From: an uncultured Gemmatimonadota bacterium
Lineage (GTDB): Bacteria > Gemmatimonadota > Gemmatimonadetes > Gemmatimonadales > Gemmatimonadaceae
Reading direction: 5' to 3'
Assembly: GCA_902826615.1 (NCBI GenBank)
Contig: CADEFN010000004.1
Span: forward strand, 124,001 to 188,000
Length of the DNA stretch: 64,000 bases
Shown here: piece after piece, positions 53,744 to 64,000 of the stretch
How the letters are laid out: each line of letters begins with the position of its first letter
Numbering within the stretch: the stretch's first letter is position 1
Translations under genes and position numbers: made by a program
The notes under the pieces: generated by a model
Databases searched by the model: none
What the model saw: the letters and a program-made list of their open reading frames with translations, nothing else
What the model was told of the DNA's origin: nothing

Positions 53744-55861
53744 TTATTTCGCCTTGCTGACAATCTCTTCGGCCTTGCTCTTCGGCACTTCCTCGTAGTG
53801 CGAGAATTCCATCGAGTACACCGCCCGGCCCTGGGTCATCGACCGCAGACGGGTGGAGTACCCGAACATCTCGCCTAACGGCACCGTGGAGGCAATCACC
53901 TGCGCCTCACCACGCTGCATCATCCCGCCGATCTTGCCGCGGCGCGACGACAGGTCGCCGAGGACGTCGCCCATGTACTGCTCGGGCGACACAACCTCGA
54001 CCTTCATCATGGGCTCGAGCAGGATGGGGCTGGCCTTGGCCGCGCCCTCCTTCACCGCCATTGAACCCGCAATCTTGAATGCCATTTCCGACGAGTCGAC
54101 GTCGTGGTACGAGCCGTACACCAGCTCGACCTTCACGTCCACCATCGGGTAGCCGGCCAGGACGCCGTTTTCCAGCGCTTCCTTGATCCCCTGCTCGACC
54201 GGCCCAATGTACTCACGCGGAATGACACCACCGACAATCTTGTCCTCGAACACGAAGCCATGGCCCTGTTCGCCCGGCATCACGTTGATGACCACGTGGC
54301 CGTACTGACCCTTACCGCCCGACTGGCGAATGAACTTCCCTTCGACCTTGTCGACGCGCTTCTTGATCGTTTCGCGATAGGCCACCTGCGGGCGACCCAC
54401 GTTGGCGTCGACCTTGAACTCGCGCATCATGCGGTCGACGATGATCTCGAGGTGTAACTCCCCCATCCCCGCGATGATCGTCTGACCCGTTTCGGTGTCC
54501 GTGTGCACCCGGAACGTCGGGTCTTCTTCTGCCAGCTTGTTGAGCGCAATCCCGAGCTTGTCCTGATCGGCCTTCGTCTTCGGCTCGATCGCGACCTCGA
54601 TGACCGGCATCGGGAACTTCATCGCCTCGAGGATGATCGGCTTCTCGTCGTCACACAGGGTGTCGCCGGTCCGCGTGTCCTTGAGCCCGATGGCGGCGGC
54701 GATGTCGCCCGCCCGCACTTCAGGAATCTCCTCGCGCTTGTTCGCATGCATCTGCAGCAGGCGGCCGATGCGCTCGCGCTTGTCCTTCGTCGAGTTGTAC
54801 ACGTGGCTGCCCGATGCGAGCACCCCGGAGTACACGCGGAAGAACGTCAGCTTTCCGACGAACGGATCGGTCGCGATCTTGAACGCCAGCGCCGCGAACG
54901 GCGCCTCGTCGCTCACCGCGCGCGTGTCAAACGTCTCGTCGTGGTGCGGCAGGTGGCCCTGGATGGCTTCGACGTCCACCGGTGCCGGCAGGAAGTCGAT
55001 CACCGCGTCGAGCAACGCCTGCACACCCTTGTTCTTGAAGGACGCACCGCACAGGATCGGCGTGAAACGCATCGTACACGTCGCCTTGCGGATCAGTCCG
55101 CGAATTTCATCGACGGAGAGCTCCTCGCCGGCCAGATAGCGCTCCATCAGCGCATCGTCATGCTCCACCACCGCTTCGATGAGCTCGTGACGAGCCTGCT
55201 CCACACGATCGCGGAATTCGTCACTCACGTCGCGGACGTCAAACGTCTTGCCTAACGTCTCGTTGTGGAAGATGTACTCCTTCCGCTCAACGATGTCGAT
55301 GTGTCCTGTGAACAGCTCGCCCGACCCGACCGGCAGCTGAACGGGGTATGCGCCCTTCGTCAGGCGATCCCGGATCATCTCGACGCATCGCTCAAAGTTC
55401 GCCCCAACGCGATCCATCTTGTTCGCGAAGATCATGCGCGGAACCTTGTACCGGTCCGCCTGGCGCCACACCGTCTCGGTCTGCGGCTCCACACCGGCCA
55501 CGGAATCCAGCAGGGCAACCGCGCCGTCCAGCACGCGCAGGGAGCGCTCCACCTCGACGGTGAAGTCCACGTGCCCGGGGGTGTCGATGATGTTGATGCG
55601 GTACTCCGGCCCCTCACCCTTGTCCTGGCTCGAGCCGTGGCGCTTCCAGAAACAGGTCGTCGCGGCCGACGTGATCGTGATGCCACGCTCCTGCTCCTGC
55701 TCCATCCAGTCCATCGTGGCAGCGCCATCGTGCACTTCGCCAATCTTGTGGCTCTTGCCCGTGTAGTACAGGATGCGCTCGGTCGTGGTCGTTTTCCCGG
55801 CATCAATGTGGGCCATGATGCCGATGTTGCGATAATGGTCGAGCGGCGTCGAGCGAGGCAT
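53744..55861 (-). CDS. fusA: Elongation factor G
   Basis: A protein of 705 residues. It drives ribosomal translocation. GTPase motifs: [15 protein letters not shown] (G1), [11 protein letters not shown] (G2), [17 protein letters not shown] (G3), [10 protein letters not shown] (G4). Domain IV and V strings are [16 protein letters not shown] and [15 protein letters not shown]. The next gene upstream should be rpsG, but here a lasso-peptide cluster intervenes. Confidence 0.99.
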
Positions 55862-56236
55862 ATCAGTCGTCTGTATCGTTAGGTCCCCACTTGCGCGGGG
55901 ATTCCATCAGCAAAAACGCGGGTGGACCTGCACCCCATACCTTGGGGCCGGTATCCATCCGCCACCGCCGGGTACACGCGCCGCTGCTGCACACGTGGGG
56001 ACCCATGGCGCGCCAGACCACCAGCGGCCTGACGTTGAGTTGTCCTGCGTCGCTTTTCGGGAGCCGGCTACCTCTGAGAGGACCGGGCGGTTAACCACAC
56101 CCCCACGAAATCCGTGGGCCCATAGGTGCCGACGCGCAGTTTCGTCGGCAATTCAGTCATTCCCCGCGGTCGGTTACGGGAGCCGAGGAATATCGAAGTG
56201 GCGGATGTTGAAGTCAATCCCCCACTTGGGACACTT
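55862..56236 (-). other. Structured intergenic region upstream of fusA
   Basis: No convincing coding sequence in these 375 bases. Read on the minus strand towards fusA, several hairpins can form: TGCCGACG/CGTCGGCA (8 bp, near 56127-56150), CCCACG/CGTGGG (56102-56118), CCCC/GGGG around 55933-55947, and, about 20 bases before the fusA start, a 7-bp stem TCCCCGC/GTGGGGA closed by a GCAA tetraloop (55884-55901). A copy of the CGTTAGGT octamer variant follows at 55877. It should hold the promoter and 5' leader of fusA now that the gene is separated from rpsG. I could not place a -35/-10 pair with confidence. Confidence 0.5.
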
Positions 56237-57460
56237 TCAAACGCCCGATCCAGCCCTCGTCACGCCACTCAGGTAACGCCCCCACTCTCCAAGATGGGCG
56301 AGCTGCCCGCGGAAGCGCGCCAGCTGGCTCAAAGGCTCCTGAGCTCCCGCGTGTACCAGGGGATCTTCGTCCCACGGGCGCCCCTCACCGACTTTTGCTG
56401 GCTCAAGGGCCAGGCTCCAGAGCAGCCGCCTCCACCTCTCCGATGGACAAGGCACAATTCGAGACACCACGTGCGCAGAAAGGTGGCGTTCGATCAGCCC
56501 TTCCAGCAGCGCCGTGCGCGGGCGCCGCAGGCCCCGCAGGAACGCCTCGGGAGCGTCGTGCCCCCCAGCAAGCAGATCCACCAGCCGGTAGCTCCAGAAC
56601 ACCGCCGACTGCGCCTGATACCGCCCTGCCACTGTAGCGACCGCGTCCCAGTCGACGCCGCCACGAGTCAGCGCGCGCAGATCGCGCGCAAGCCGCCAAA
56701 GCCCGAAGGACGCCAGGTGGGCCCACGCAAAGTGGACGGCGAGGTGCACAATCATGTGGGGAGCGTCCAGGACGTACACCTCTCCGTCCAGCCCACTCGC
56801 CCGCCGCCCGGCCTTGCGCGCTTCGTGGAACGAAAGCGCAAACGGATGCCCGCTCATGTTGAGGGCGGTGTGGATCTCGAGCTTGGCCCCGGTGCGTCGC
56901 TGATCGAAAAGGGGCGGCAGGTGGTGGTGGCTCAAATAGTGGTCTTTGGGAAAGGCCTGGGCATCCCAGGCCCAGCCATGCTCGATCGCGAGCTGCCACA
57001 GCCGCTCGGCATCATCGGGCGCCACCAGCAAGTCCAGATCGCCCATCGGGCGGTCCCCAAACGACGCATAGCTCGTCATGGCCAGACCAGCACCCTTGAG
57101 CATGACAACCGGCACGCCGTGCTCCTTGCAGAGCCGAAGCATTTCCAGAAGCCGCTCGCGCAGCATCAACCCTCGAAACTCGGAGACCGTGCTCACGCGA
57201 TCAAGTGCCACGGCGATCTCTGGAGAGGGTGCCGCACCCAGCGCACGCAAGCGACGCCAGCTCCAAGGGAGGCTGCGCTCCCATTCGGCCAGAATCAGCA
57301 GCTGCTCCCAGTCAAGCGGCCGCTGGAGCCGCGCACGAATGCGCGCATCCACTGCGTCCGGCCCGGCCGTCAGGAAAACGAGCTTGGCCTCATCTGGAAG
57401 GAGAGCGCCCTGCGAGGAATCGTCGGTCACGAGAGGTGATGACCGGTCAGGAGTGAGCAC
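56237..57460 (-). CDS. Nucleotidyltransferase-family protein of lasso cluster
   Basis: A protein of 407 residues, GTG start at 57460, 6 bases after the permease stop. The polymerase-beta-like nucleotidyltransferase pattern is visible: VVMLKGAG (residues about 118-125) and PMGDLDLLV with Asp141 and Asp143. It matches the large family of putative nucleotidyltransferases common in lasso clusters that also carry an HPr-kinase-like enzyme. By context it may add a nucleotide or otherwise extend the phosphorylated tail of the peptide, but no reaction is established here. It is the last gene of the lasso cluster, next to the fusA leader. Confidence 0.8.
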   Translation of the reverse strand: MLTPDRSSPLVTDDSSQGALLPDEAKLVFLTAGPDAVDARIRARLQRPLDWEQLLILAEWERSLPWSWRRLRALGAAPSPEIAVALDRVSTVSEFRGLMLRERLLEMLRLCKEHGVPVVMLKGAGLAMTSYASFGDRPMGDLDLLVAPDDAERLWQLAIEHGWAWDAQAFPKDHYLSHHHLPPLFDQRRTGAKLEIHTALNMSGHPFALSFHEARKAGRRASGLDGEVYVLDAPHMIVHLAVHFAWAHLASFGLWRLARDLRALTRGGVDWDAVATVAGRYQAQSAVFWSYRLVDLLAGGHDAPEAFLRGLRRPRTALLEGLIERHLSAHVVSRIVPCPSERWRRLLWSLALEPAKVGEGRPWDEDPLVHAGAQEPLSQLARFRGQLAHLGEWGRYLSGVTRAGSGV

Positions 57461-57466
57461 ATGTGG

Positions 57467-58273
57467 CTACGCGCGAGCAAGCGTACCAGTGACTCGGGCG
57501 CGCCGTAAGGCCGACCCAAACAACACCAATCCCAACCCACAAACCGTTACGGTCATGATCACCAGGATGCCCAGGTCCGATCCAGCTTCAGCAAAGCTCT
57601 TGCCGTCAAGAAGAATGCGGCGCAACGCGCGCAGACCATAGCTGGCCGGAACGAAATTGGAAAGCACCTGCAATCCACCGGGGATGACGGACGTGGGGTA
57701 AAACGCGCCGCCAAGGAGGGTTGTCCCCACCACAAATATCTGGCGCAGGGGACCCTCAGTACGGAAAGCAATAACCATGGCCGCGCCGCACAAACCGACG
57801 CCCCAGTGCAACACCATGATCAGCAGCAGGACAAACAACCCGGGGATAATCGCCGCGCCGGCGATGCGTGCCCCCAACGCCCAGCCGGCAATCATGACGA
57901 GGAGCGCGCGCAATAAGGCCCAGAGAATCTGATACGCCGAGAGCCCAATGAGCCATGTGAGCCAGGGCGTCCGTGTCAGGAGAAGTCCCTCGAGAAAGCC
58001 GCTCCCGATCCCGGCCTGTACCACACCCGGCAAAATGCTGATGCACGAACTCACCAGGGAAATGATCATGGTGCCGGTCAGCACGAAGGCAAAGTACTGC
58101 GTGCCTTCCTGCGCAATCCGCGGTGCCATCGTTCCCTGCAGTGCGTTGGCCACGAAGTACACCGGCACGACCGTAAACCCAAGCGCCAGCAGCGACAGCA
58201 CCGTCTGCGTGCGATACGTCGAGAAGGTCAGCCATTCGGCACGCAGGAGGGCCCCTACCGCTCGCCAGTTCAT
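57467..58273 (-). CDS. ABC transporter permease (ABC-2 type) of lasso cluster
   Basis: A protein of 268 residues with six predicted membrane helices (for example TVLSLLALGFTVVPVYFVANAL, GTMIISLVSSCISILPGVVQAGI, PGLFVLLLIMVLHWGVGLCGAAMVI, and a final LGILVIMTVTVCGLGLVLFGSAL). The fold and the FYPTSVIPGGLQVLSNFVPASYGL loop before the last helices are typical of ABC-2 drug or lipid exporters. It overlaps the ATPase stop by 4 bases. With the ATPase it probably exports the finished peptide or gives immunity, replacing the single-chain LasD-type exporter. Confidence 0.85.
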   Translation of the reverse strand: MNWRAVGALLRAEWLTFSTYRTQTVLSLLALGFTVVPVYFVANALQGTMAPRIAQEGTQYFAFVLTGTMIISLVSSCISILPGVVQAGIGSGFLEGLLLTRTPWLTWLIGLSAYQILWALLRALLVMIAGWALGARIAGAAIIPGLFVLLLIMVLHWGVGLCGAAMVIAFRTEGPLRQIFVVGTTLLGGAFYPTSVIPGGLQVLSNFVPASYGLRALRRILLDGKSFAEAGSDLGILVIMTVTVCGLGLVLFGSALRRARVTGTLARA

Positions 58274-59280
58274 GCGCGCACCTGCGTGACCCGCTCGAGC
58301 AGGTCCGCCAGGGAAGCCCGCTCGGCCGTGAACTCGGACACTTCCACGCCGGCACTAACCAATTTCTGCAGGACTTGTGCGCCGGACGTCGCACCACCGT
58401 CGAGAAAGACGTGAACGTCGCCCCACCCATCACCAGCGGGAGCGACCGGGCTTACGCGGCGCACAAAGGGCGAGTGCGTGAGCGAGGCAAACGCGGGATG
58501 CGACGGCTCACGCGTTCGCACGGTCACCCGTGGCTCGACATATCGTGCCGCGAGTTCGCGCGCCGGGCCCTCTGCCACGAGGACCCCGTGATGAAGGATG
58601 GCGACCCGGTCACACAGATCGAACGCCTCGTCCGCGTCGTGTGTCGCAAGGACAACTGCGGACTGCCGCTTCTTCGCCAGCTCTTCCCGCAGAAAGGTGC
58701 GAAAGGCGCGCGCCGAGATCGGGTCGAGACTGCGCGTGGGTTCGTCGAGAAGGAGCACCCGCGGCTGGGCCAGCAACGCTCGCGCAACAAACAGCCGCTG
58801 AATCATGCCTGACGAGTATTCCCCCACCATGCGATCGGCCGCGTCCGCGAGACCAACAACCTCGAGCACCGTCGCAATCTTGCCGTGCAGCTCTGACTCG
58901 GCAAGGCGGTTCAGTGTGCCAAAGAGCCGAAGATTCTCGCGGGCCGAGAGTCGCCAGAAGAGACCGCGTTCGGTGGCAAGGGAGATGGACACGAGATCAC
59001 GCACCGCCGTCGCCTCTCGTACCACGTCGTGGCCACCCACCTGGGCGCTGCCGCTGTCAGGAATCAGCAGCGTCGACAGCATCTTCATGAGCGTGGTCTT
59101 GCCGGCACCGTTCACACCGAGTAACCCGTAAAACTCGCCAGGGGCCACGCGGAAACTCACGCCGCGCACCACCTCGAGAGTCCTTGCCGGCGTTCCACGG
59201 AGCAGGTCCCGGAAACCCCGGAGCGGATGGAAATGCTTTTTGAGGTCGTCGACGACGACCAGCGCCGCCGTATCCGTCAC
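58270..59280 (-). CDS. ABC transporter ATP-binding protein of lasso cluster
   Basis: A protein of 336 residues. Walker [10 protein letters not shown] (residues 55-63), a degenerate signature ([17 protein letters not shown]), Walker [15 protein letters not shown] and the H-loop [11 protein letters not shown]. The DrrA/CcmA-like type pairs with ABC-2 permeases. The last ~100 residues form an additional domain. It starts at 59280, overlapping the kinase stop as ATGA, and its own stop overlaps the permease start, so the three genes are translationally coupled. Confidence 0.9.
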
Positions 59281-60218
59281 GGCACGCTACCAACGCCCGG
59301 CGGAGATGCATGCCAGCCTTTGAGCTGCTCGACTGCCGAGTCGAGCCTCCCCAGGTCTCGGCGAATACGCAGGCGGTACACCGGTACACGGGAAGCCACG
59401 TCGGCCATCTGATGAAAGTGCGCCGTCGCCTCGGGGCCTCGCAGTAGACTCCCCAGCTTGCTCTGCTCAATCAGCGCCATTGTCGCCAGGGGCGCGGGCA
59501 GCAACTCACGCTCTATTTCGGGGACGGAGGGGTCGGCCGGCGCCGGGGAGAGCAGATACGCAGCTGCAAAGCGCACCGAGGTCACTTCCTCTTCGAAGTG
59601 GGACGCGATCAGCTTGCGATCATCGGCCCCCTCATGCGCCCCTTCCAGCTCGATTGCCGTGGCTGAATCTCGCAGCAGCCGAATGCGCGTCACCCCAGGC
59701 CGCAGCCGTGGAGCCGCCCCACGAACAATCGGCAGAGTGTCGTCGGTCAGGACCCGAGCCCCCCCTCTGGCAAGCCCGGCAGCAATAGTCGATTTGCCGA
59801 ACCCCTTGGGCCCCATGAACGACACCCCTTCGCCACCGATGGACACCGCGCTCGCATGAAGACTGGGGACCCCCTGGAGGTGAAAGAGCATGGCCATGAC
59901 CCTTCCCAGCACATCAGCCCGCATACCCTCCCTCAGATGGTCATCTGCGCCGTCCGGGGCATACCAGACTATCTGACCACTGGCGGTGATATCGAAGCGC
60001 CCAGTGTCATCGTAGATGAGGGAGATCCCTTCTGCGGTCCGATATGACCGCACCTTCGTTTCGCCGAAGACGATGTCCTCGCCGACAAGCTCCAGCGGGC
60101 CAACTGGGGGCTCATGCCCCACCGCGAGGTTCCATTCATTTTCTTGATCGGACGCCTGCAGTTCCGTGAATGGGAAAGCGGACTCGAGGGTCCCGCCAAA
60201 TACTCGGTAGCTGTGCAC
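59277..60218 (-). CDS. HPr-kinase-like lasso peptide kinase
   Basis: A protein of 313 residues, GTG start at 60218. The C-terminal half is HPr kinase/phosphorylase-like: P-loop GPKGFGKST (residues 136-144) with DD at 159-160 (LTDDTLP) and HASAVSIGGEG before it. The N-terminal ~110 residues replace the HprK N domain. In paeninodin-type clusters such kinases phosphorylate the C-terminal Ser of the lasso precursor, and the precursor here ends in Ser. A 13-bp palindrome and a TATAGT box (60329-60334, minus strand) precede the gene, so it may have its own promoter. Confidence 0.85.
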   Translation of the reverse strand: MHSYRVFGGTLESAFPFTELQASDQENEWNLAVGHEPPVGPLELVGEDIVFGETKVRSYRTAEGISLIYDDTGRFDITASGQIVWYAPDGADDHLREGMRADVLGRVMAMLFHLQGVPSLHASAVSIGGEGVSFMGPKGFGKSTIAAGLARGGARVLTDDTLPIVRGAAPRLRPGVTRIRLLRDSATAIELEGAHEGADDRKLIASHFEEEVTSVRFAAAYLLSPAPADPSVPEIERELLPAPLATMALIEQSKLGSLLRGPEATAHFHQMADVASRVPVYRLRIRRDLGRLDSAVEQLKGWHASPPGVGSVP

Positions 60219-60382: not shown

Positions 60383-60418
60383 AAAAAGAAAAAGGGCGCA
60401 CCTTGTGAGGCGCGCCCT
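60383..60418 (-). terminator. Intrinsic terminator/attenuator after lasso precursor
   Basis: On the minus strand: stem AGGGCGC/GCGCCCT extended by inner CC/GG pairs, then TTTTTCTTTTT. It lies 34 bases after the precursor stop. Such hairpins often follow lasso precursor genes so that precursor mRNA exceeds that of the enzymes; here it sits between the precursor and the kinase-transporter genes. Confidence 0.9.
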
Positions 60419-60451
60419 CCAACTGTGACCCGGTTAAGGCGATAAACTGCC

Positions 60452-60616
60452 TTACGAGCGGACGATGCAGGCGCCCGGTCCCGTCGGACTCTTGGGATTC
60501 GGGTTGCACTGGATGTCGCCGATGCCCGGAAGTGAATCCATTCCAGGAACCGTCTTATCCGTAAGGGTCAGCTCTCGGAAACTGCCGAAACGCTGAAGTG
60601 TCGGTGCTTCGTACAT
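60452..60616 (-). CDS. Lasso peptide precursor
   Basis: A protein of 54 residues from the ATG at 60616 with an excellent Shine-Dalgarno (GGGAGGAAATACCG). The leader fits the canonical lasso pattern Y-x2-P-x-L-x3-G-x5-T: Tyr2, Pro5, Leu7, Gly11, Thr17. Taking Thr17 as the conserved -2 Thr, the core is residues 19-54: N-terminal Thr, with Asp27 exactly at core position 9 as ring acceptor. This is the only Thr choice giving an acidic residue at 8 or 9; another leads to Asp at position 7 from Lys21. The tail has Cys37 and Cys50, which may form a disulphide, is Pro/Gly/Asn-rich, and ends in Ser54, the likely phosphorylation site. At 36 residues the core is long for a lasso peptide. Confidence 0.85.
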   Translation of the reverse strand: MYEAPTLQRFGSFRELTLTDKTVPGMDSLPGIGDIQCNPNPKSPTGPGACIVRS

Positions 60617-60660
60617 CGGTATTTCCTCCCAGTAAAGTGTCCTTCCTCGCTTTAGAACCA

Positions 60661-60762: not shown

Positions 60763-62658
60763 TCAGTAAGGGAATTGGCGTAGCCACTCCTCGCATGTCA
60801 GCGCGAGATAGAGCTGGACGTACTGGAGGTGATCCATCGTGGTCAGGTTGTCGAGGTATCGGAGCATGAGGGGTACGTCGACGAGGCCCATTTGGCTAAG
60901 CCGCCAGGCCGAAGCAGGCCCCAGGGCCGTGGCCAGGGCCGGGGCCTCGACTCGCATCGAGCGCTGGAACTCACCCCCTGGCGTTCCAGTCTTGGAGGGC
61001 CTGGGCGCGATGACCCAGTCGGGCAGTACGCCCCGCATGGCCTCCCTCAGGAGCGGTTTGGGCTGCCCCGCGATTCCGCGCTCTGAGACGGGTCTCGAGG
61101 CCGCGAACTCAACAATACGACGGTCAAGCAAGGGGGACCGGAGCTCGACGCCTTCATCCAGGGCCATACCGGTTGCCCAGCTGATGGCGCGAGGGAAATA
61201 GGGAGTCTCCACGTACCAACGGGACTCATACGCTGACGGGCTTTCGAGGAATCTTCTTGGTGGCTCGCGGCGAAGCCGTCTTCGGACCAACGGATCCTCC
61301 CGCCATCGGGACTGGATCCAGGGCGCCTGGGTCTGCCAAGTGGCGTCCTCGTCTGAACGACCCCTGGCTCTCGACTGCCAGTATCGAACGCGCTCCGGCA
61401 GCCAGGGCAGCAGCCCCAGCCTCACGATTGTGCGGAACCCTGAGTCGCCGTAACCCTGGAGCTCGCGCACGAGTTCGGTGATCCGACCTCTCACCAGGTA
61501 ATCCGCCAGGTACGACTTGGAGATGCCAAACAACTGGTCGCCCCCGTAGCCATCCAGCGCCATTCCAGCGCCAAGGTGCCGAGCCTTCCTCGCCATAGTT
61601 CGGTTCTTGGCTTCGAAGGTGTGGGCATAGGGGTCGTCGCGGTGGGCCGCCCACCCCTTGATGTCGCCAAAGAGACCAAGGGTGGCACTCGGAATCCAAT
61701 TGACGTCCAGGGAAAACCGGTCGGAGATGGCCTGCACAAAATGATCTTCCCGCCCCATATCCCCTTCGGGGTACGAGACGGTGATTGGGGCAATCTTCCT
61801 GGGTGTTGCCGCTCCCCTCTCCATGGCGAGACATGCGCCCGCCAGAACTGCGGGTGAATCCGCTCCACCGCTCAGCCAGATCGCTACCGGGTCCCCCGAG
61901 AGCCTTACGGCAGTTGCCTGTACGATCAGCTCCCTGAGTTCTTCGCCCCCCGCCTTGAGATTGGGGGCACCAGAGACTCGAAAGGCCGGGGGGTGCCAGA
62001 CGCCTCGCGGCTGGAGGCCATGGCGCGGCTGCCAAACAAGCGTCGTCGCCGCCGGGACGGGAAAAACACCGACAAATCCGGTTGCCAGACTTCCGCCGAG
62101 GAGGCCGCTCAGGGCCGAGACCACGGCGGGCAGATTCAGCTGCGCGTTTACTCTGGGATGCGCCGCCACGCTGCGGGCCGCCGAGGCCACAACAATTGAG
62201 GCGCCGGCAACAGCATAGTGTAGAGGGCGCCTGCCGAGATGGTCGCGACCCAGGATCAGCCGCTCCTTGCCGGGATCCCAACACGCGAATGCGAAGTCGC
62301 CCTCGAGGTGCTGGATGCAGTCAGCGCCCCACACGGCGCATGCCTGAACCACAAGGCCACGGTCTGTGACCGCCGTCGAGGCCACGCCTGCTGCGGAGAG
62401 TTTGCGCCTCAGGTCCGCCTGGTAGTAGAGGCACCCATCGAGTGCCACGATCACCCCGTTACTGCGCTCCAGCGGCTGCGTCGCACCAAAAACGGCGGGT
62501 TCCCAATCGGTCATCGCCCCCGCCAGAGCGCACCCTGGTGCCGCCTCGGTACTGACGGTTCCCCCCCGCGAACGATATCCGCTCGAAAGAAGCGCGGACG
62601 CCTGCGCCCGAAGTTCGCCCTCTGGCTCCGGACCGGCGACGACCCCGATCGCCGTCAT
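60763..62658 (-). CDS. Lasso cyclase (asparagine synthetase-like, C protein)
   Basis: A protein of 631 residues from the ATG at 62658, which overlaps the B2 stop as ATGA. It has a class II amidotransferase-like N-terminal domain without the catalytic Cys2 (starts MTAIGVV), then a synthetase domain with the ATP-pyrophosphatase loop SGGADS at 263-268 and DGYGGDQLFG. In lasso biosynthesis it adenylates the ring Asp/Glu side chain and drives attack by the core N terminus. The C terminus (YVQLYLALTCEEWLRQF) is usual. It is followed by the precursor gene rather than preceded by it. Confidence 0.93.
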   Translation of the reverse strand: MTAIGVVAGPEPEGELRAQASALLSSGYRSRGGTVSTEAAPGCALAGAMTDWEPAVFGATQPLERSNGVIVALDGCLYYQADLRRKLSAAGVASTAVTDRGLVVQACAVWGADCIQHLEGDFAFACWDPGKERLILGRDHLGRRPLHYAVAGASIVVASAARSVAAHPRVNAQLNLPAVVSALSGLLGGSLATGFVGVFPVPAATTLVWQPRHGLQPRGVWHPPAFRVSGAPNLKAGGEELRELIVQATAVRLSGDPVAIWLSGGADSPAVLAGACLAMERGAATPRKIAPITVSYPEGDMGREDHFVQAISDRFSLDVNWIPSATLGLFGDIKGWAAHRDDPYAHTFEAKNRTMARKARHLGAGMALDGYGGDQLFGISKSYLADYLVRGRITELVRELQGYGDSGFRTIVRLGLLPWLPERVRYWQSRARGRSDEDATWQTQAPWIQSRWREDPLVRRRLRREPPRRFLESPSAYESRWYVETPYFPRAISWATGMALDEGVELRSPLLDRRIVEFAASRPVSERGIAGQPKPLLREAMRGVLPDWVIAPRPSKTGTPGGEFQRSMRVEAPALATALGPASAWRLSQMGLVDVPLMLRYLDNLTTMDHLQYVQLYLALTCEEWLRQFPY

Positions 62659-63101
62659 CGCAGGTCGGAGAGCTTGACTGGAATAGCCTGGTAGCCGGAG
62701 ACGTGGGCTTCGTCGTCCCCAAGGATTTCTCCGCAGAGTTCCACCCAGGCGTGTGCGGCAAACTTTCCGTCCTGCCGCGCCACACCAACACGCACGGCCG
62801 CTCCCTTCACTCCTTCGGCTTCTAGACGTTGGGTGATTGCCATGGCGCGTACCAGGCACGTTGGGCGAAAGACACCCCTTCGCGATGCCCTCATGACACC
62901 CTGCGCAATCAGTCTTGCTCTGCGCCGGTCGTCGGGCTCGAGCGAAGTGACGGCGTCGGCGCTTCCGGGATCAACCAGCCCTCCAACCGGAACAGACCTC
63001 AGGCTCTTTTGCGCCCTCAAGAGCGCCAGCTGGCCAAGAGCGATGGCCTTGAGCTCCGTGAATGAGGCGCGCCGGAGACTACGGAGTGCGTCCAGCATCC
63101 G
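62655..63101 (-). CDS. Lasso leader peptidase (transglutaminase-like B2 protein)
   Basis: About 148 residues from the ATG at 63101; an in-frame ATG at 63122 is an alternative and both overlap the B1 gene. Catalytic triad of the transglutaminase-like family: Cys81 (FRPTCLVRA), His116 (AAHAWVEL) and Asp128 (LGDD), with the His-to-Asp spacing of 12 as in McjB. It cleaves the leader after the conserved Thr-x pair, aided by B1. Its stop overlaps the cyclase start. Confidence 0.9.
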   Translation of the reverse strand, partial: RMLDALRSLRRASFTELKAIALGQLALLRAQKSLRSVPVGGLVDPGSADAVTSLEPDDRRRARLIAQGVMRASRRGVFRPTCLVRAMAITQRLEAEGVKGAAVRVGVARQDGKFAAHAWVELCGEILGDDEAHVSGYQAIPVKLSDLR

Positions 63102-63402
63102 GTGCCGAGGCCGACCCGCCATCGGCCGCGACGACAAGTCCACTCGCGAGTAAATCGCGGAGGAAGTTGCGCACGTCCTTCGCCAGGACCTCAGGCGCCA
63201 CATCCTTGAAGCGATCCGAAAGCTTGCGGCAGAGCCCCTCCACGGTATCCGCCGTGGGTAAGGCTTCCCAAATGATGGTCCCGACCGGATTCAGGCCGAA
63301 GTAGACCTCGGAGTCACTCGAAAACAACACGCCCCCGTCGGCCATCGCACGGAAGATGGCCGTTGGTGAAGGGCGCGGGAGGGGGGTCTCCGGAGTGGTC
63401 AC
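63079..63402 (-). CDS. PqqD-like leader-binding protein (lasso B1/RRE)
   Basis: A protein of 107 residues, GTG start at 63402. The PqqD/RiPP recognition fold is visible: DGGVLFSSDSEVYFGLNPVGTIIWEAL (residues about 22-48, quoted in part) and LCRKLSDRF...LAKDVRNFLRDLLASGLV. It binds the Tyr/Pro/Leu/Gly leader pattern and brings the precursor to B2. It is the first gene of the lasso cluster, 175 bases downstream of rpsG. Confidence 0.9.
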   Translation of the reverse strand: MTTPETPLPRPSPTAIFRAMADGGVLFSSDSEVYFGLNPVGTIIWEALPTADTVEGLCRKLSDRFKDVAPEVLAKDVRNFLRDLLASGLVVAADGGSASAPDAGRTP

Positions 63403-63577: not shown

Positions 63578-64000
63578 CTACCAGCGATAGTGCGCGAAGG
63601 CCTTGTTGGCTTCAGCCATGCGGTGCGTGTCTTCCTTCTTCTTGATGGCATTGCCCTCACCCTTCGAGGCAGAGATCACCTCGGCGGCGAGTTTTTCGGC
63701 CATGGACTTCTCGTTCCGATCGCGGGAGTACGAGAGGAGCCAGCGCATGGCGAGTGCGGTCCGGCGTTCCGGGCGAACTTCGACGGGCACCTGGTAGGTT
63801 GCACCACCAACGCGCCGCGACTTGACCTCGATCACCGGCTTGAGGTTCGCCAGGGCCTGCTTGAAAATGTTCACGCCCGGCTGGGCGGTCCGTGACTCGA
63901 CGAGATCCATGGCGCCGTAGAAGATGCGTTCGGCGGTGGACTTCTTTCCCTGGAACATCAGGGAGTTGATGAACTTGGAAACAGTCTGGCTGTCATAGCG
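63578..64000 (-). CDS. rpsG: 30S ribosomal protein S7 (5' end outside window)
   Basis: About 140 C-terminal residues are visible; the frame continues past the window edge ([21 protein letters not shown], in part, is encoded at the edge), so about 15 N-terminal residues are missing. Signatures: [11 protein letters not shown]-like segment ([20 protein letters not shown]) and [14 protein letters not shown], ending KAFAHYRW. S7 binds the 16S 3' domain. In nearly all bacteria fusA follows directly; here a lasso cluster intervenes. Confidence 0.97.

Follow-up and report, generated by a model that had tools for sequence, protein, structure and literature searches.

The lasso cluster and its precursor gene

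The DNA analysed here (the window, 64,000 nt) carries, between rpsG and fusA, a set of genes that runs along the minus strand in the order rpsG, B1, B2, C, A, terminator, kinase, ABC ATPase, ABC-2 permease, NTP_transf_5 and fusA (Table 1). Judged by profile matches and conserved residues, the lasso enzyme set of this cluster is complete. The best NCBIfam model for the cyclase is the lasso isopeptide cyclase NF033535, with a score far under the 525-bit cut-off of that model, and its SGGxDS motif is invariant in the alignment of homologues. Aligned in the same way, Cys84 and His119 of B2 are invariant and Asp131 is nearly so.

Table 1. Features of the lasso cluster and its borders in the window, with two cyclase-less loci of other genomes (last line)
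Feature	Position	Strand	Evidence
rpsG (S7), upstream border, continues past the window end	63578..64000	-	TIGR01029, 205.7 bits
B1, PqqD-like RRE protein	63079..63402	-	PF05402, E 2.9e-16; lasso PqqD models
B2 leader peptidase	62655..63107	-	NF033537, 60.6 bits (cut-off 33)
C, macrolactam cyclase, asparagine-synthetase-like	60763..62661	-	NF033535, E 6.4e-49; PF00733
Shine-Dalgarno GGAGG	60625..60629	-	8 nt 5' of the gene A ATG; read from sequence
A, lasso precursor gene, 54 aa + stop	60452..60616	-	NF033521, 29 bits, E 6.9e-7; homologues
Leader, residues 1-18, YxxPxLxxxGxxxxxTx	60563..60616	-	homologue alignment; NF033521
Likeliest core T19-S54, 36 aa; alternative starts D20, K21	60455..60562	-	Thr(-2) rule
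Asp27, probable ring-closing acid	60536..60538	-	aligned acid in 11 of 12 aligned homologues
Cys37	60506..60508	-	conserved Cys pair; at least two core Cys in 43/44
Cys50	60467..60469	-	conserved Cys pair; alignment
Ser54, probable phosphorylation site	60455..60457	-	35/44 cores end in Ser; adjacent kinase
Intrinsic terminator, 13-bp stem, T-rich tail	60391..60420	-	directly 3' of A; fold z -4.9
HprK/PEPCK-fold peptide kinase	59277..60218	-	profiles; AlphaFold; Foldseek
ABC exporter ATPase, DrrA-like	58270..59280	-	profile matches
ABC-2 type permease	57467..58273	-	profile matches
NTP_transf_5 family protein, PsmN-like	56237..57460	-	PF14907, E 2.8e-36; alignment
Promoter-like TTGACT-17-GATATT, upstream of fusA	56189..56217	-	promoter-pattern match
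fusA (EF-G), downstream border	53744..55861	-	TIGR00484, 1149 bits
Cyclase-less lasso-derived clusters (G007, G135)	L029 2690-7560; L071 642-5690		B1, B2, kinase, ABC, NTP; precursors YERPRLERYGTFR...

The AlphaFold model of the kinase has a mean pLDDT of 89 and matches PEPCK and HprK structures in Foldseek, while its sequence resembles HprK models weakly. Nine homologues share His121, Lys142, Asp159 and Asp160 without exception, and a His-Lys-Asp-Asp motif has been reported for lasso kinases (PMC9266682). A search for a phage origin of the kinase gave no match. The label PsmN-like, as used here for the PF14907 protein, presumes that PsmN is itself a member of that Pfam family. Elsewhere in the same genome (G000, contig C12, L019 9818-16378) lies a second, unrelated lasso-type locus with a B2, a cyclase (25% identical), a PqqD-like RRE, an ADOP permease and a HExxH-type peptide beta-hydroxylase.

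Gene A encodes MYEAPTLQRFGSFRELTLTDKTVPGMDSLPGIGDIQCNPNPKSPTGPGACIVRS, read from an ATG at 60616-60614 to a TAA at 60454-60452. The initial annotation described it as a lasso precursor with Y-P-L-G-T leader spacing, and this is borne out: Y2, P5, L7 and T17 stand as it had them, and the leader model lasso_leader_L3 (NF033521, NCBIfam) matches residues 2-18 at 29 bits, over a cut-off of 19 (E 6.9e-7). With a core start at T19, these residues become Y(-17), P(-14), L(-12) and T(-2) in published numbering (PMC10368454). The gene is short, and the G+C-rich DNA around it has many other frames that are spurious, as might be expected of a chance reading frame that mimics a lasso leader. We nevertheless regard that explanation as refuted and give it almost no credence, because the precursor is conserved across genera, with homologues at the same place in homologous clusters. 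The leader model, the GGAGG, the full enzyme set on both sides and homologues in dozens of genomes together place the precursor beyond chance. The terminator is a strong one, with a G+C-rich stem that starts 31 nt past the stop codon. No known RNA elements were found near gene A, and comparison of the precursor with solved structures gave no significant match.

Location in the str region

The translation genes that border the cluster do not figure in the initial annotation. Lasso genes occupy the rpsG/fusA junction in at least 21 genomes of nine genera. Both flanks were seen around them in G000 (the window's genome), G002, G007, G009, G015, G030, G035, G135, G147 and G183, and a single flank in G001, G003, G004, G025, G032, G071, G072, G073, G139, G141 and G146; in genus g22 (G025, G139, G141) the cluster begins about 3 kb past rpsG, with fusA unseen. 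In G059, from another taxonomic family, a lasso cluster lies upstream of rpsL. The str-site label is clustered on both the kinase tree (five changes against a shuffled mean of 15) and the EF-G tree (four against 12), these being quick trees with SH-aLRT support only, yet it is not of single origin. The gap between rpsG and fusA itself varies in its genes and in its length, from 335-700 nt in some relatives to more than 11 kb in others.

Could the position be functional, whether through growth-coupled expression with the ribosomal proteins or because the peptide acts on the ribosome, as lariocidin does? Either would be compatible with a lasso product, and the recurrence of the site speaks for it, as does the arrangement of the genes, which are co-directional with rpsG in all str-site cases checked and begin 168-392 nt downstream of it in several genomes. 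Against this, GC-rich hairpins follow rpsG in most of the lasso carriers tested, and 23 of 48 genomes have a sigma-70-like promoter ahead of fusA (mean 0.34 in base-shuffled controls), although, the window aside, only seven of 16 lasso carriers show such a site. In other genomes the same gap holds unrelated genes, and about half of the homologous clusters sit elsewhere. A functional location is therefore improbable on balance, and a translation role for the peptide is not indicated. The hairpins, the promoter-like site and the unrelated cargo also led us to set aside co-transcription with the ribosomal genes as the main reason for the location. The simplest reading is that in this family the str operon is split at rpsG/fusA into two transcription units, with a junction permissive to insertion; we propose that the cluster lies where it does because this split leaves an insertion-tolerant gap. 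Insertion by a mobile element was rejected, no direct repeats having been found within either flank region, each searched by itself.

In G009 the stretch between rpsG and fusA (L050 3123-13899) holds a stack of cyclases, RREs and kinases, two of each; the two precursors there, read on L031 of the same contig, differ from each other. Several genomes carry another interruption of the str region, an uncharacterised gene of ~480 aa between rpoC and rpsL (L018 8549-10000, upstream of the window end).

The precursor family and its core

A search of 60 relatives found homologues of the precursor in ten genomes, counting that of the window. A scan of a wider collection with a kinase alignment of five closer rows returned 18 loci, all titled Gemmatimonadota or members thereof. 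Within the host's taxonomic family the kinase was matched in 65 of 179 genomes, about 40 of these matches being strong, and the taxonomic order beyond the family adds a few more. From the loci, 44 distinct precursors were extracted, all from Gemmatimonadota, and the order supplied two more. They were gathered with a regular expression that demands the leader, so that conservation of the leader is not independent evidence, whereas the core traits are; the expression was run on all loci, a few of its rows deriving from clusters more remote than that of the window. Genes for g1-type precursors also occur at L023 8801-8965, L009 1400-1561 and L025 5139-5300 (G002, G003), in stretches without detected lasso enzymes.

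Counted by the Thr(-2) rule, the predicted cores of these 44 precursors are 29-44 aa long (median 37-38). At least two core cysteines are found in 43 of them, where the chance of two or more in 37 aa is ~4% per precursor, although shared ancestry means that the 43 of 44 are not 44 independent tests. The long core, the Cys pair and the terminal Ser (35 of 44) are common across the homologues and are thus traits of the family. All three, as noted in the initial annotation, are supported for the window precursor, with its core of 36 residues, its two tail cysteines (Cys37 and Cys50) and a Ser54 that the kinase of the cluster could phosphorylate; the epithet 'atypical' falls away, since by the same counts such a core is the family norm. 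Both window cysteines lie in the tail, and their pairing makes a Cys37-Cys50 bond probable; a single tail-tail disulphide is the mark of class IV lasso peptides. No oxidoreductase gene is present in the window cluster; such an enzyme has been reviewed as dispensable for the known lasso disulphides. A terminal phosphate on Ser54 is likewise probable, with the target of the kinase somewhat uncertain because the lasso kinase BsfK phosphorylates Ser3 and not the C-terminus (PMC10368454).

The position of the core start is less straightforward. Asp27 is ring position 9 if the core begins at T19, as the initial annotation had proposed, and this canonical reading fits the window precursor best. An Asp or Glu at core position 7-9 is found in 32 of the 44 homologues (29 have Asp at position 8 and three, the window precursor among them, have it at 9), but not in seven sisters. 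These seven (L005, L006, L007, L008, L009, L014 and L015) belong to gene A's own subclade of eight (g12 and g1, the latter being the genus of the window's genome), and they break the Thr(-2) rule. The nearest sisters retain the leader and T17, followed by a block K(R/T)xxGDDxIPxIGxDC...C(I/L)RS, with a spacer between T17 and the block that is 2-6 residues longer than in the window precursor; Thr(-2) counting then puts their ring Asp at 10-15. Lasso rings have been described with 7-9 residues (PMC12427821), so either the cut site shifts in the sisters or their rings are bigger. Because the spacing varies in the nearest relatives, T19 is a first choice that we infer: the fit to the rule holds for the window itself, and the spacing does not hold across its subclade.

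Proposed pathway and alternatives

The lasso reading of the precursor and its cluster is well supported by gene content and conserved residues. With reasonable but by no means full confidence, we take the product of gene A to be processed into a phosphorylated lasso peptide that has a very long tail and a tail disulphide, the gene set and conserved residues being observed in the DNA and each chemical step modelled on homologues. B1 would bind the YxxPxL leader; the kinase would phosphorylate the C-terminal Ser54, to whose phosphate the PsmN-like protein may add a sugar or nucleotide. B2 would cleave after residue 18, and C would activate Asp27 and link it to the new N-terminus, T19, giving a ring of nine around the threaded tail. 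Oxidation of Cys37 and Cys50 would produce the tail-tail disulphide of a class IV topology, and the two-gene ABC exporter would release the peptide.

A cut by B2 one or two residues further on would instead give a core starting at D20 (ring of eight) or K21 (ring of seven, with T19 at -2). Here the sisters are the main argument: their spacer separates the leader from a conserved block KxxxGxD, the second Asp of their GDDxIPxIG lies farther from T17 than does its window counterpart, counting from T17 would demand rings outside the described range, and K21 and D27 of the window precursor fall opposite the conserved K and the second D in the sister block. The rest of the family argues the other way, since Thr(-2) followed by Asp8 fits 29 of the 44 precursors and the window precursor itself obeys the rule with a ring of nine; moreover, rings of seven are rare (huascopeptin, PMC12427821). 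We consider a shifted start rather unlikely, though worth bearing in mind. For the subclade as a whole it is possible, and we suggest it tentatively, that fixed leader-to-ring spacing has been lost, with B2 cutting a non-Thr site at a movable distance or the cyclase making rings of more than nine residues, and with the window peptide as an intermediate.

The product might also be a linear, leader-cleaved phosphopeptide, akin to the Linear Polyphosphorylated Peptides (LPP) of Bacillota, whose clusters share the RRE, the HprK-like kinase, the NTP transferase and a YxxPx leader (PMC13381572). Some cousins do lack the cyclase: in G007 and G135 (genus g4; L029 and L071) genes for B1, B2, A, kinase, ABC and NTP are present, but the search for an orthologous cyclase gave at best partial matches of about 140 bits, against >550 bits for true orthologues elsewhere in the same search, and neither Asp nor Glu occurs within the first 18 core residues of their precursors. 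Their products are possibly linear phosphopeptides. The window, in contrast, has both cyclase and ring Asp, and the joint absence of the two in g4 supports a ring-closing role for the aligned Asp, as a correlation and not a proof, since it concerns one lineage whose genomes are 89% (G135) and 95% (G007) complete. The window also has a lasso-type B2, and the cluster proteins that were scanned include no signal peptidase of the archaeal type. A linear product is therefore very improbable here, and the lasso reading is retained.

In G032 a str-site precursor likewise has no ring acid and its local cluster no C; that this genome is cyclase-less throughout was rejected, as a cyclase lies on another contig. 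Its L068 and L066 form a split cluster, as do L080 (G030, C30) and L062 (G030, C76): the rpsG-fusA site holds B1, B2, ABC and NTP genes, with cyclase and kinase on the other contig, which suggests that the enzymes are shared in trans.

Among the closest known systems are paeninodin and pseudomycoidin, where an HprK-like kinase phosphorylates the C-terminal Ser and, through the nucleotidyltransferase-like PsmN, a hexose is added (PMC9266682). The window cluster shares the kinase and a C-terminal Ser, here a predicted acceptor, and has a PF14907 member where pseudomycoidin has PsmN; it differs in its much longer predicted core, its Cys pair, its separate ABC-2 exporter, a kinase only weakly similar in sequence to HprK models and its host phylum. 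Pandonodin (class IV; 33 aa in total), which a 2026 review names as the longest-tailed lasso peptide (PMC13352647), resembles it in its very long core and tail-tail disulphide, which is predicted here; the window core has 36 aa (29-44 in the family), and phosphorylation genes accompany it, where the review's passages on pandonodin mention no kinase. Like the window cluster, Bradymonadales BsfA has a kinase, a YxxPxL leader and an N gene, but with Ile(-2) and Ser3 phosphorylation in place of Thr(-2) and a C-terminal Ser (PMC10368454). LPP clusters have no cyclase and an archaeal-type signal peptidase where the window has cyclase and B2; the cyclase-less cousins stand closer to them.

No description of this lasso family was found in the open-access literature, to which the search was confined. 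The soil phylum Gemmatimonadota thus holds a large, apparently undescribed lasso family, long-cored, Cys-paired and probably phosphorylated. What is new, as far as gene content can tell, is that a single long-cored family unites known traits (the kinase, the PsmN-like protein and a class IV-like Cys pair), together with the spacer anomaly of the subclade. The family's predicted cores reach 44 aa, against 33 aa for the longest-tailed characterised example quoted. The sisters with a movable spacer offer a natural series for asking what sets the cleavage site of lasso precursors and the size of the ring. The cyclase-less cousins, whose precursors have no ring acid, suggest a route by which such a pathway may degenerate into one for linear phosphopeptides.
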